From a virus, in the IMG/VR virus record IMGVR_UViG_3300022837_000056, positions 1 through 30,244 of that record: a stretch of 30,244 bases of DNA; one strand, given 5' to 3'. The notes under the pieces were generated by a model. It was not told the origin of the DNA. It did not search any database and saw nothing but the letters and a program-made list of their open reading frames with translations. The translations under genes were made by a program, and so were the position numbers. Below, one piece after another: positions 21,599-29,741 of the stretch (position 1 is its first letter; every line of letters begins with the position of its first letter).

Positions 21599-21599
<1 letters not shown>

Positions 21600-22834
21600 T
21601 GACGTTCTATCAAACACTCGAAGAGGCAGACTCTGAGGTATTTAATTTCATACAACAAGAAAAGTCAAGACAAAACAACACTCTTGAGATGATTGCAAGT
21701 GAAAACTTTGTACCGTTGTCGATCATGGAGGCACAGGGTTCAGTCCTCACCAATAAGTACGCTGAGGGTTACCCTGGAAAGCGTTACTATGGAGGCTGTG
21801 AGTTTGTAGATGAGATAGAGAACCTAGCAATCTCCAGGGTAAAACAACTCTTTGGTGCAAAGTATGCAAACGTTCAACCTCACTCTGGCTCAAGTGCTAG
21901 TGCAGCTGTGCTTCATGCGTTGGCTTCACCAGGAGATACTATTCTCGGGATGGAGTTGTCTCACGGTGGTCACTTAACCCACGGGATGAAGCTCAACTTT
22001 TCGGGTAGAAACTATAAAGCTACATCATACGGTGTAGATCCATTAACTAACTTAATAGACATGGATGAGGTAAGAGACAAAGCTCTAGAGCACAGGCCTC
22101 AAGTTCTAATTGCTGGCTGGTCTGCATACTCCAGGCACCTTGATTTTGATGCCTTTAGAAGCATCGCTAATGAGGTTGGAGCAAAGCTTTGGGTAGACAT
22201 GGCTCACTTCTCTGGACTGGTTGCAGCTGACCTGCACCCAAGCCCATTCCCTTTTGCTGATGCAGTTTCTACAACAGTTCATAAAACATTGGGAGGGCCA
22301 AGGTCCGGAGTAATCCTTAGCCAGGATGCAGACATTGCCAAAAGAATAAACTCCGCAGTGTTCCCTGGACAGCAGGGCGGTCCTCTAATGCATGTGATAG
22401 CTGCCAAGGCCGTCGCGTTTAAGTTAGCTATGCTTCCAGAATTTAAAGAGCGTCAAGAGAGAACAATCTCTGGAGCAAAAGTTATAGCAGAGACACTGGT
22501 AGATCGAGGAATAAATGTCTTAACTGGGGGAACAGATGTGCACCTCTTAATAGTAGACTTGTCTAACTCTAATATTAGTGGCAAAGAAGCAGAAGATCTT
22601 CTTCATAGCTCTGGCATCACAGTTAATAGAAACTCAGTACCTTTTGACAGCAGATCGCCTATGGTCACTTCTGGACTTAGAATCGGAACTCCTGCCTTAG
22701 CTACAAGAGGCTTCGGGGATGAGGAATTCCAAGAGGTAGCAGATGTTATCGCAGACCTCCTGTTAAGCAAAATGTCTCCTAACTCTGCAATGGACAGAGT
22801 AAAGCTTTTGACTCAGGCATTTAAGCTTTATTAG
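21599..22834 (+). CDS. glyA: Serine hydroxymethyltransferase (GlyA)
   Basis: 411 residues from GTG 21599, overlapping the nrdF stop by one base. PLP-dependent fold: [67 protein letters not shown] (D200) and the PLP lysine K229 in [13 protein letters not shown]. The GGPRSG variant (not RGPRGG) is typical of actinobacterial enzymes and suggests acquisition from a host. It converts serine and tetrahydrofolate to glycine and methylene-tetrahydrofolate, the one-carbon donor for thymidylate synthesis, so it fits next to ribonucleotide reductase. No thymidylate synthase is seen in this window. Full length and apparently intact. Confidence 0.95.
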
Positions 22835-22846
22835 TCTAAACTTTGT

Positions 22847-22875
22847 TTGACAATCTCTTCTGTGTCCTGTATACT
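22847..22875 (+). promoter_or_regulatory. Strong promoter of the tRNA-Asn/tRNA-Gly unit
   Basis: TTGACA (22847-22852), 17-base spacer, TATACT (22870-22875). Start expected near 22882. A second -10-like TATAAT follows at 22879-22884. It begins 12 bases after glyA and drives the tRNA genes at 22922 onwards. Confidence 0.75.
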
Positions 22876-22921: not shown

Positions 22922-22994
22922 TGCCCCATAGCTCAATTGGCAGAGCGCAGAGCTGTTAACTCTGATGTTCCTGGTTCGAGTCCAGGTGGGGCAG
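22922..22994 (+). tRNA. tRNA-Asn (GTT)
   Basis: Full cloverleaf: acceptor TGCCCCA/TGGGGCA, T8-A9, D-stem GCTC/GAGC, anticodon stem CAGAG/CTCTG with loop CTGTTAA giving anticodon GTT (22955-22957), and T-stem CCTGG/CCAGG around TTCGAGT. Discriminator G. The 3' CCA is not encoded. Confidence 0.95.
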
Positions 22995-22995
22995 C

Positions 22996-23066
22996 GGGAA
23001 TATAGTTTAATGGTAAAACTACAGATTTCCAATCTGTTGTTGAGAGTTCGATCCTCTCTATTCCCT
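22996..23066 (+). tRNA. tRNA-Gly (TCC)
   Basis: Acceptor GGGAATA/TATTCCC, T8-A9, D-stem GTTT/AAAC, anticodon stem ACAGA/TCTGT with loop TTTCCAA giving TCC (23028-23030), T-stem GAGAG/CTCTC around TTCGATC. Discriminator T; CCA not encoded. One base separates it from tRNA-Asn. A weak A5/T6 hairpin follows at 23076-23091 and may end the transcript. Confidence 0.93.
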
Positions 23067-23102
23067 CTCAAGTTCAAAAACCGCATTTTTTATATACTCT
23101 AG

Positions 23103-23436: not shown

Positions 23437-23465
23437 TTGCAATGAGCGACACTTTAAGATACAAT
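23437..23465 (+). promoter_or_regulatory. Promoter before the 23496 gene
   Basis: TTGCAA (23437-23442), 17 bases, TACAAT (23460-23465). Start near 23472, leaving a 24-base leader with AGGAAGAGG before ATG 23496. Confidence 0.5.
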
Positions 23466-23495
23466 AGAGTATAAGCCGCAAAGGAAGAGGTTGTG

Positions 23496-23729
23496 ATGGA
23501 TGACTTTAACGTATGGTTAAGTCACGGTTATGTAATGGGTTGGTGTGGGCCGGCAGTTTGCGATACCCATGACGGAGTCCCAATGTCGGAGACAGAGTTA
23601 GCTGAGTTTGATGACGGTGGTGACCCATGCCTACACATTCTTCGTCTCTATGAGGACAAGGAACACAAAAAATCTATAGAAGAAAGCCACTCTCCGTCTA
23701 TTTGGAGAGCTATTAACAGCGGCCTATAA
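23496..23729 (+). CDS. Small conserved actinophage-type protein, unknown
   Basis: 77 residues from ATG 23496, preferred to GTG 23493 because of its distance to AGGAAGAGG. MDDFNVWLSHGYVMGWCGPAVCDTHDGVPMSETELAEFDDGGDPCLHILRLYED has three cysteines and a GWCGPxVCxTHDG segment like that of small proteins seen often in actinobacterial phages. Possibly metal binding. No membrane segment. Function unknown. Confidence 0.6.
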   Translation: MDDFNVWLSHGYVMGWCGPAVCDTHDGVPMSETELAEFDDGGDPCLHILRLYEDKEHKKSIEESHSPSIWRAINSGL

Positions 23730-23765
23730 CTCAGGCTACCACCGTAAAACCACATAATTAAACAT

Positions 23766-24070
23766 GGGAGTGATCGGTTTCGACAGTAAGTCTGAAGCTG
23801 GAGAAGCAAGCAGAGAATCCTGTACCTCTTGAATCGGGAAAAAGAATAACTGCAAACTCACGTTCTGCATTCGCACTAGCTGCTTAATAGCGCTCAGTGC
23901 ACCACGGGCAGCATTAGTTCTAAATGGGCACCCCTGGATTTAAGTAAATAGAACACCCACCAAGGTGGCGACCTTAACCGCAACCCGCAGCACCGTGGCT
24001 GGTAGAGCCTAAGCTTGTAGAAGAACAGTAGATTGCTTATTGGACGGGGGTTCAATTCCCCCCACTTCCA
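23766..24070 (+). ncRNA. ssrA: tmRNA (ssrA) with tag ANSRSAFALAA
   Basis: The 5' end GGGAGTG-ATCGGTTTCGACAG and the 3' end with GGTTCAATTCC and CACTTCC are diagnostic of tmRNA; GGGAGTG pairs with CACTTCC (one G-T pair) as the tRNA-like acceptor stem, followed by discriminator A. CCA is not encoded. The tag reading frame begins at GCA 23852: Ala-Asn-Ser-Arg-Ser-Ala-Phe-Ala-Leu-Ala-Ala, then TAA TAG (23885-23890). ALAA is the usual signal for ClpXP-type degradation. The middle has GC-rich pseudoknot-like arms (CACGGGCAGC; CACCAAGGTGG). A CATAAT -10-like element at 23753-23758 predicts transcription start within a base of position 23766. It would rescue stalled ribosomes and tag nascent proteins. 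Intact, so probably functional. Confidence 0.95.
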
Positions 24071-24102
24071 CAAATCTTCTCCTGCATGTATGGGGGTAAC
24101 CA

Positions 24103-24176
24103 GATCCTGTAGCTCAGCTGGTTAGAGCGCCGTTCTGTCACGGCGGAGGTCGCCAGTTCAAGTCTGGTCAGGGTCG
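24103..24176 (+). tRNA. tRNA-Asp (GTC)
   Basis: Acceptor GATCCTG/CAGGGTC, D-stem GCTC/GAGC, anticodon stem CCGTT/GGCGG (two G-T pairs) with loop CTGTCAC giving GTC (24137-24139), T-arm with TTCAAGT. Discriminator G; CCA not encoded. Thirty-two bases after tmRNA. Confidence 0.93.
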
Positions 24177-24180
24177 CTTT

Positions 24181-24252
24181 GCCTCCTTAGCATAACGGCT
24201 AGTGCACTGGTTTTGTAATCCAGGGATAAGTGTTCGATTCACTTAGGAGGCT
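24181..24252 (+). tRNA. tRNA-Thr (TGT)
   Basis: Acceptor GCCTCCT/AGGAGGC, D-stem GCAT/GTGC, anticodon stem CTGG/CCAG plus a T-T mismatch beside loop TTTGTAA giving TGT (24214-24216), T-stem AAGTG/CACTT around TTCGATT. Discriminator T; CCA not encoded. Four bases after tRNA-Asp. Confidence 0.9.
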
Positions 24253-24281
24253 CTTGGTTAATGTCGTGATTTAAAGCTCTG

Positions 24282-28226: not shown

Positions 28227-29741
28227 ATGTTCTTGCGCGTTCATAAAAAACAAATCTCATTCGTAATTGCCCTAGCACTAGTTGGAGCTTTTCCTATCAA
28301 CTCCCCAAGCTACGCCAACAACCAAATAGATTTAGGCGGATCAGGCAGCTTTGCGGTACTAGCTAAGACTTATGTGACAACTGGAGCCAGCAGCACTATA
28401 CATGGCGACATCGGCTCTGGAGACGCTACAACAACTGGCGCCGATAGCACTCACAAAGGTAGTATCTACGCCGGCGGAGCAATAACTACTGGTGCTAGTA
28501 ATGATATAGATGGCAACTTACACGCAGTGGCTGCTATTACCTTAGGGGCTGGCAACGAAATTGCTGGAACAGTAGAAGCCGGTCAATCAGCAATAAAAGA
28601 CTCTTACTCTCAAGCAATGACGGCCATGGGCCAAGCAATCTCTGAGGCCATGGAGATCCCTGCTGAGACTGTAGCTACAGCTCTGGATGGAAGGACATTG
28701 GTCGGTGGCGCTTACACCGCTGCAGCTGGCGGGTTCTTAACCCTTGCGGGAAATCTTACACTGGACGCCGATGGCGATTCAAACTCAGTCTTCATAATCA
28801 AAAGCCCAACTTATATATCTACAGCTGCTGGTAGTTCTGTGACGCTAATCAATGGGGCTAAGGCTAGTAACGTCTTTTGGGTTACTGAGGGCTATATGTC
28901 CATGGGTGCCGATGCCAGAATATCTGGAAACATCCTAGCTAATGGTTACGTAACTGTCGGAGCAGGTGCAAGCGTTCTGGGTCGAGTCTTTTCTAAGACT
29001 AGCTACGTACTCTTTGGGCTCAGCGGTCCAGGTTCTTCTTTTGGCCTGATAGGTATTGGAACTGGGCCAACCCCTGCGCCGAGCCCCTCACCAGAGGCAA
29101 CATCAGAACCCTCACCAGAAGCAACATCAGAGCCCTCACCAGAGGCAACACAACCAGTCGTGACACCAGCACCAACCAGCACCACACAACCAGCAGTGCC
29201 AGTCCCTAGCCAGTCGCCTACGCAGAGCCCGATTCCGACACAGCCCCCAGCCCCCACACAAGTGCCTACACCAGTGCCTACGCCAGTTGCTAGCTCTGCG
29301 CCACCTACAGCCGAGCCTAGCCCTAAACCTAAGACCGAGGTTACTGTAAGTCCAATACCAGAGCCAGACCAAAAGCCTATAGTCGTTGGTGAAAGGGAAT
29401 CTTTTAGCCCTCTTGCTCTAGAATCTCCAGCACAAGAACCCTCGACACCTTATGTTGTAGACCTTGATATCCCGCAACACGATCATGAAAGCATGATAAC
29501 TGTAAACGTAGATGGATCGGGCAACCCAAACATAACAATAAACGTAAATATTGAGGTACCTAGCCATCCAGTACAGGAAGAGGTACCCCTTTGTGCAGCA
29601 AAGGCTGAAGACTTAAACCCAAAGGCCAAGACAACACTTAGATCCATAATGGACTTTTTAGGATTCGCCACTTCTCAAGTCACACGATCTATAAGGAATT
29701 TTCTGGTTGCACCTATTGTCAATATTCAGTTGCCTGTGTGA
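28227..29741 (+). CDS. Secreted DUF3494 (ice-binding-like) protein
   Basis: 504 residues from ATG 28227 with AAAGGAAAA. A Sec signal peptide is present: KK then a hydrophobic core (FVIALALVGAF) and a likely cut after SYA (residue 30). Residues about 35-275 are a DUF3494 ice-binding-like beta-solenoid: FAVLAKTYVTTGASSTIHGDIGSG, LTLDADGDSNSVFIIKSPTYISTA, then VTLINGAKASNVFWVTEG, GNILANGYVTVGAGASVLGRVFSK. These repeats (T/V-rich solenoid turns) and the NVFW motif are diagnostic. A Pro/Ser/Thr-rich linker with PSPEATSE repeats (about 283-385) and a C-terminal domain of about 120 residues follow. Members bind ice, or act as adhesins. A secreted host-type protein in a phage is uncommon; it may be a virion decoration, or a moron that changes the infected cell surface. 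Confidence 0.85.
   Translation: MFLRVHKKQISFVIALALVGAFPINSPSYANNQIDLGGSGSFAVLAKTYVTTGASSTIHGDIGSGDATTTGADSTHKGSIYAGGAITTGASNDIDGNLHAVAAITLGAGNEIAGTVEAGQSAIKDSYSQAMTAMGQAISEAMEIPAETVATALDGRTLVGGAYTAAAGGFLTLAGNLTLDADGDSNSVFIIKSPTYISTAAGSSVTLINGAKASNVFWVTEGYMSMGADARISGNILANGYVTVGAGASVLGRVFSKTSYVLFGLSGPGSSFGLIGIGTGPTPAPSPSPEATSEPSPEATSEPSPEATQPVVTPAPTSTTQPAVPVPSQSPTQSPIPTQPPAPTQVPTPVPTPVASSAPPTAEPSPKPKTEVTVSPIPEPDQKPIVVGERESFSPLALESPAQEPSTPYVVDLDIPQHDHESMITVNVDGSGNPNITINVNIEVPSHPVQEEVPLCAAKAEDLNPKAKTTLRSIMDFLGFATSQVTRSIRNFLVAPIVNIQLPV
29085..29150 (+). repeat. 24-base tandem repeat in the linker of the DUF3494 gene
   Basis: CCC-TCA-CCA-GA(A/G)-GCA-ACA-TCA-GA(A/G) (Pro-Ser-Pro-Glu-Ala-Thr-Ser-Glu) occurs at 29085-29108 and 29109-29132, and a third, partial copy (29133-29150). 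Prone to copy-number change; gives a flexible linker. Confidence 0.85.

Follow-up and report, generated by a model that had tools for sequence, protein, structure and literature searches.

Genomic context of the tmRNA locus

The window analysed here, a virus record from IMG/VR with 30,244 bases, carries a complete one-piece tmRNA gene (ssrA) on the plus strand at 23766-24070, counted from the mature G1 to the discriminator A, as had been predicted from the sequence and as was borne out by ARAGORN, the Rfam model RF00023 and covariation. The record is an incomplete fragment (30 kb) of a tailed phage and encodes a terminase, a DnaB-like helicase, a primase, a DnaE-type polymerase, a UvsX-like recombinase, ribonucleotide reductase and an M23/LysM endolysin. 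No phage record matches window positions 1-25000 at the nucleotide level, and the nearest named kin are Streptomyces phages of the Stanwilliamsviridae, with about 54% amino acid identity over full coverage for the terminase and DnaE of this 30-kb fragment. These two proteins, together with a WhiB protein encoded in the window, make an actinobacterial host plausible. Two pattern scans of genome contigs for this tag or this 5' sequence in a bacterial tmRNA gave no match, as did blastn of the tmRNA against plasmids, and a first blastn search with the tmRNA and its flanks matched tRNA genes only.

The tmRNA lies between two pairs of tRNA genes on the plus strand, as originally noted: tRNA-Asn (GTT, 22922-22995) and tRNA-Gly (TCC, 22996-23067) upstream and tRNA-Asp (GTC, 24103-24177) and tRNA-Thr (TGT, 24181-24253) downstream, all called by ARAGORN and Rfam. 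These four tRNAs match the most used synonymous codons of the contig (AAC, GGA, GAC and ACA). Two small ORFs stand between tRNA-Gly and the tmRNA. One of them, just upstream of the tmRNA (23493-23729, plus strand), codes for 78 amino acids with the pattern CxTHDG...DGGDPC; it has no Pfam or PHROG family match, and homologues occur upstream of the tmRNA or of tRNA-Asn in L003, L006, L013, L018 and L045 (L numbers denote related loci and contigs). An 80-residue membrane-like protein at 23186-23428 matches PHROG 26427 ('nuclease', E 4e-24) and, weakly, a holin. Further features of the region include a serine hydroxymethyltransferase gene (SHMT, GlyA-like, 21599-22834), situated between the ribonucleotide reductase genes, which it directly follows, and the tRNA block, and a gene for a secreted ice-binding-like protein at 28227-29741 (DUF3494, PF11999, E 8e-33). 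About 1.4 kb of the latter is absent in L005, with ACCCAAAGG at both edges of the gap, which therefore reflects a recent gain or loss.

Architecture of the tmRNA

ARAGORN called a tmRNA at 23766-24071 with the tag ANSRSAFALAA followed by two stops, and RF00023 matched 23766-24073 over the full model (positions 1-374) with 121.1 bits (gathering threshold 47, E 4e-47). No match to the permuted two-piece model RF04321 was obtained at gathering in the window, and RF00023 fits end to end. The hallmarks listed in the original prediction, among them the GGGAGTG acceptor, the GCA resume codon, the tag ANSRSAFALAA and the stops TAA TAG, were located in the sequence, and the proposed 3' end at 24070 is correct: the 5' acceptor strand GGGAGTG (23766-23772), with the third base contributing the G of G3-U70, forms seven of seven pairs with CACTTCC at 24063-24069, followed by the discriminator A at 24070. 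CCA is not encoded, the DNA after the acceptor reading A-CAA.

Acceptor, T-arm, PK1, tag frame, H5 and PK2 (the downstream pseudoknot placed) were positioned by hand, the 3' acceptor strand with additional support from covariation and the T-arm GGGGG-TTCAATT-CCCCC (24046-24062) with support from Rfam. All parts lie on the plus strand. The 5' strand of helix H2 (23785-23811; helices 2-4) pairs in three segments with 24013-24044, and is followed by pseudoknot PK1 (AGAG/CTCT and TCCTG/CGGGA, 23812-23839; helices 5 and 6). The tag reading frame called by ARAGORN (23852-23884) opens with the resume codon GCA at 23852 and is closed by the tandem stop codons TAA TAG (23885-23890). Helix H5 (23873-23900; helices 7 and 8, with 76-80% of cells paired) encloses the last part of the tag frame together with the stops, and pseudoknot PK2 (CCACGGG/CCCCTGG and GTTCTA/TAGAAC, 23902-23954; helices 9 and 10) has all cells paired and shows compensatory changes. 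Near the 3' end, a 30-nt block, GTGGCTGGTAGAGCCTAAGCTTGTAGAAGA (23995-24024), is conserved in relatives (exact match, 13 stretches) and marks the 3' edge of what is probably an exchanged mRNA-like domain (see below). The gene unites a full-length RF00023 match, an alanine-type acceptor and T-arm, a tag frame with its degron, and PK1, H5 and PK2.

Leader motif and candidate promoters

The original prediction had aligned the 5' start with a '-10-like element'. A conserved A/T-rich element is indeed present, ATAATTAAACA at 23754-23764 on the plus strand, just 5' of the mature end; a scan found no sigma-70 promoter there. This 11-nt motif, with the consensus A[TCA]AA[CT]T[AT]AA[CT]A (ATAAYTAAAYA-like), precedes all 13 of the 13 related tmRNAs and ends 1-6 nt before the mature 5' end, i.e. 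too close to G1 for an ordinary -10 box with a transcription start at G1. Several relatives (e.g. L014, L042 and L043) possess a TATACT-like hexamer about 19 nt upstream of the mature end, and we infer that transcripts in these start near the beginning of the motif, which would then be a short leader cut off by RNase P. No TATACT-like hexamer is evident at the matching place upstream of the tmRNA in the window itself, where transcription may proceed from a strong sigma-70-like promoter ahead of the tRNA/tmRNA region (TTGACA-17-TATACT, 22847-22875, plus strand, 11/12, identified by consensus match only) or from 23437-23465.

Conservation and selection among related phages

Relatives were gathered via the SHMT gene (11 loci) and further viral contigs via tmRNA patterns. 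About a dozen related viral contigs have the gene, as do complete Streptomyces phage genomes. L004 and L005 have the same tmRNA/tRNA arrangement as the window at 98% over the region, while the tmRNAs of L007/L008 and of L011 lie elsewhere and bear the tags ADKSQFALAA and ASNQSTYALAA, respectively. Acceptor and tag were intact wherever the gene was present, so this comparison did not refute the original prediction, and two relatives lack the whole gene: in L003 and L006, whose SHMT is 97-98% identical, the site is empty and no tmRNA occurs elsewhere on these fragment records of 20 kb and 56 kb. The existence of such close relatives without the gene implies that it is probably dispensable and not essential to the phage.

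An alignment of 11 phage tmRNAs was evaluated against a structure of 70 pairs including the pseudoknots. Paired cells made up 91.8%, a percentage favoured by the fact that the structure was partly taken from the window, and 23 pairs had changes on both sides, which are not expected from such a bias. The covariation score of 0.310 was not reached in any of 500 shuffles (mean 0.123) and fell to 0.074 or less when the 3' partners were slid; selection has therefore acted on the RNA. Compensatory changes are found in the pairs of both PK1 and PK2, and the G-U at the third acceptor pair (G3-U70), the alanine identity determinant recognised by AlaRS, is invariant (11/11). The gain of the minimum-free-energy fold over shuffles was only modest (z -2.1), which is what a pseudoknotted RNA would be expected to show. 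Moreover, every related tag that was read ends in ALAA, while the N-terminal residues differ, as do some of the codons (A[NE]SRS[AT]FALAA, ADKSQFALAA, ASNQSTYALAA, ANSKFAFALAA and ANSRNAFALAA). The suggestion of a ClpXP-type tag is supported. A complete and structurally conserved one-piece tmRNA is maintained in a family of related phages.

Probable mosaic structure of the gene family

The different parts of the gene do not share the same relationships. L015, L017 and L018 share the 222-nt mRNA-like domain of the window (23803-24024, plus strand) at 95-98%, whereas their tRNA-like ends are only 48.6% (5') and 51% (3') identical to those of the window. The background identity between window and L018 is 74%, both over 3.26 kb of nrdEF and in the small upstream ORF, and other family pairs at similar background have about 70% identity in the mRNA-like domain. 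For the pair window-L017, 43 of 85 positions are identical in the tRNA-like and 218 of 223 in the mRNA-like domain (Fisher p 2e-22, to be read as a guide given that sites are non-independent). The pattern occurs in other pairs as well: L013 and L014 have identical tRNA-like domains (84/84) and differ in the PK1 region (49/62), where L014 equals L043 (61/61), and L044 and L046 have near-identical tRNA-like domains but not the same PK1 and tag, L046 being equal to L043 in these. The two tRNA-like halves change together across the 220 nt that separate them in the gene.

We consider it probable that the mRNA-like domain (tag, PK1 and PK2) moves between phages as a cassette that becomes joined to unrelated tRNA-like domains, the tmRNAs of L015, L017 and L018 being chimeras that retain acceptor and tag but have no canonical T-loop. 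Most simply read, the mRNA-like domain would have been replaced through recombination inside the conserved helix strands GAAGCAAGC and GCTTGTAGAAGA. If only the L017-type tRNA-like domain had diverged fast, the 95-98% in the mRNA-like domain against 74% in nrdEF would be left unexplained, and a chimeric assembly is unlikely as the mosaic occurs in three mutually different contigs from three samples. Tree tests on the tRNA-like domain (83 usable columns) lend weak backing: a grouping of the window with L017/L018 was not rejected (p-AU 0.19) and a grouping of L014, L043 and L046 was barely rejected (p-AU 0.043, uncorrected and with the group picked after seeing the data), so that the contrast in identity is the main basis of the mosaic claim.

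The L017-type tRNA-like domain keeps the seven acceptor pairs and G3-U70, and its T-arm has GGCAGCT or a nine-base loop, not TTCAATT. These tmRNAs (L030 1501-1808; L015, L017/L030 and L018) are missed by ARAGORN and found by Rfam at 89-91 bits. Just upstream of them, at L030 1385-1460 and at the equivalent positions of L015 and L018, lies a tRNA-like gene whose anticodon loop has eight bases (CGTTTACG) and for which ARAGORN gives the anticodon TTTA; Rfam scores it at 42.5 bits in L030, and it is unlisted at gathering for L018. It could be a degenerate tRNA or one with a four-base anticodon.

A literature search, incomplete in its coverage and hence no proof of novelty, returned no description of tmRNA domain exchange between phages. 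The mosaic pattern suggests a trade in the tag-bearing domain among phages. It would offer a clean test of the natural interchangeability of the tRNA-like and mRNA-like domains of tmRNA.

Predicted function and alternative explanations

tmRNA releases stalled ribosomes and marks their incomplete protein for destruction, and one with parts such as these needs the AlaRS, EF-Tu, SmpB, RNase P, CCA-adding enzyme and ClpXP-type proteases of the host. SmpB was absent from the window and from 14 related records, including the complete genomes of Samisti12, Wakanda and Gilson (ten bacterial controls were positive), and must therefore be supplied by the host. It is highly likely that 23766-24070 is a functional phage ssrA gene, which most likely performs ordinary trans-translation, relying on the SmpB and proteases of the host. 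The tmRNA would be transcribed together with the tRNA block during infection, its precursor trimmed by host RNase P and 3' nucleases, and host enzymes would add CCA to the product and load it with alanine. Together with host SmpB the tmRNA would then enter ribosomes stalled on broken mRNA and append A-ANSRSAFALAA to the nascent protein; the ribosome would be released at the tandem stops and the tagged product passed to a host ClpXP-type protease. The benefit would probably lie in keeping ribosomes available, along with the four tRNAs, during mRNA degradation, with the phage tmRNA supplementing rather than replacing that of the host.

The lack of a phage SmpB would also suit a competitor or decoy that titrates SmpB or replaces the host tag and so alters which proteins are degraded. 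A precedent exists in mycobacteriophage DS6A, which has a tmRNA consisting of the tRNA-like domain only, and such a molecule is a strong inhibitor of host tmRNA, possibly because it titrates SmpB (PMC4131195). However, a decoy would need neither an intact tag frame with tandem stops, nor PK1, H5 and PK2 under covariation, nor an ALAA degron, all of which are kept here, and products tagged with a normal degron end would still be degraded; we regard this explanation as unlikely. The phage copy may override the host tag or speed up degradation of host proteins, as the original prediction proposed, but none of the results favours this; the degron end of the tag is conventional. For the tmRNA of marine phages, comparable proposals are in print (PMC9004378).

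Host ssrA is a common attB, and the locus might be an integration scar, i.e. a phage attachment site or a captured piece of host ssrA. The actinophages CrimD and Angelica, for instance, integrate at the host tmRNA and carry 23 bp of it (PMC3029335). The gene in the window, on the other hand, is complete and not a 3' fragment, searches of the window and 16 related records for a tyrosine integrase were negative (14/14 controls positive), and related phages keep the tmRNA with compensatory changes in a similar tRNA neighbourhood, which renders a scar very improbable. Least probable of all, to the point of being negligible, is that the sequence is a bacterial contaminant or the contig a chimera: the window is a metagenomic fragment and incomplete, but in the separate contigs L004 and L005 the genes follow in the same order, at 98% across the region, which already refutes this explanation, and the gene recurs in the related viral contigs and complete Streptomyces phage genomes mentioned above.

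Comparison with known phage tmRNAs

The literature agrees with the initial statement that tmRNA is uncommon in phages, as 402 of 18,146 phage genomes (2.3%) encode one (PMC9004378); yet it is a regular gene in Streptomyces cluster BE1, where all phages have it (PMC5764925), and mycobacteriophage tmRNAs have already been recorded (PMC4131195). Marine phages (Melnitz and pelagiphages) have a permuted two-piece tmRNA, while that of the window is one-piece with no riboswitch match; for the marine tmRNAs, roles in ribosome rescue or host protein turnover have been proposed (PMC9004378). Large tRNA-bearing actinophages of mycobacteriophage cluster C and Wildcat (Bxz1, Cali, Catera, ET08 and Wildcat) likewise carry a complete ssrA; blastn at E 0.1 found no similarity to the window tmRNA.

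Streptomyces phages of the Stanwilliamsviridae (Samisti12 MF347639, Wakanda NC_070785, Daubenski, Anedea and Riptide) also possess a one-piece tmRNA in a tRNA-rich region, and the records of Samisti12 and Wakanda annotate it. Their tags, ANSKFAFALAA (Samisti12) and ANSRNAFALAA, resemble ANSRSAFALAA of the window, but their tmRNAs are shorter (267-280 nt), only about 38% identical to that of the window over the aligned mRNA-like domain, and accompanied by many more tRNA genes. A probable tmRNA was also noticed in Streptomyces phage Gilson (NC_048742, 77165-77434, RF00023 82.5 bits, above the cut-off). About a dozen environmental actinophage tmRNAs are hereby added to a poorly studied set, and the divergence among them is sufficient to support helices and tag by covariation. 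In itself, the tmRNA of the window is an unexceptional representative of a known phage gene, and such genes are known in related viruses.
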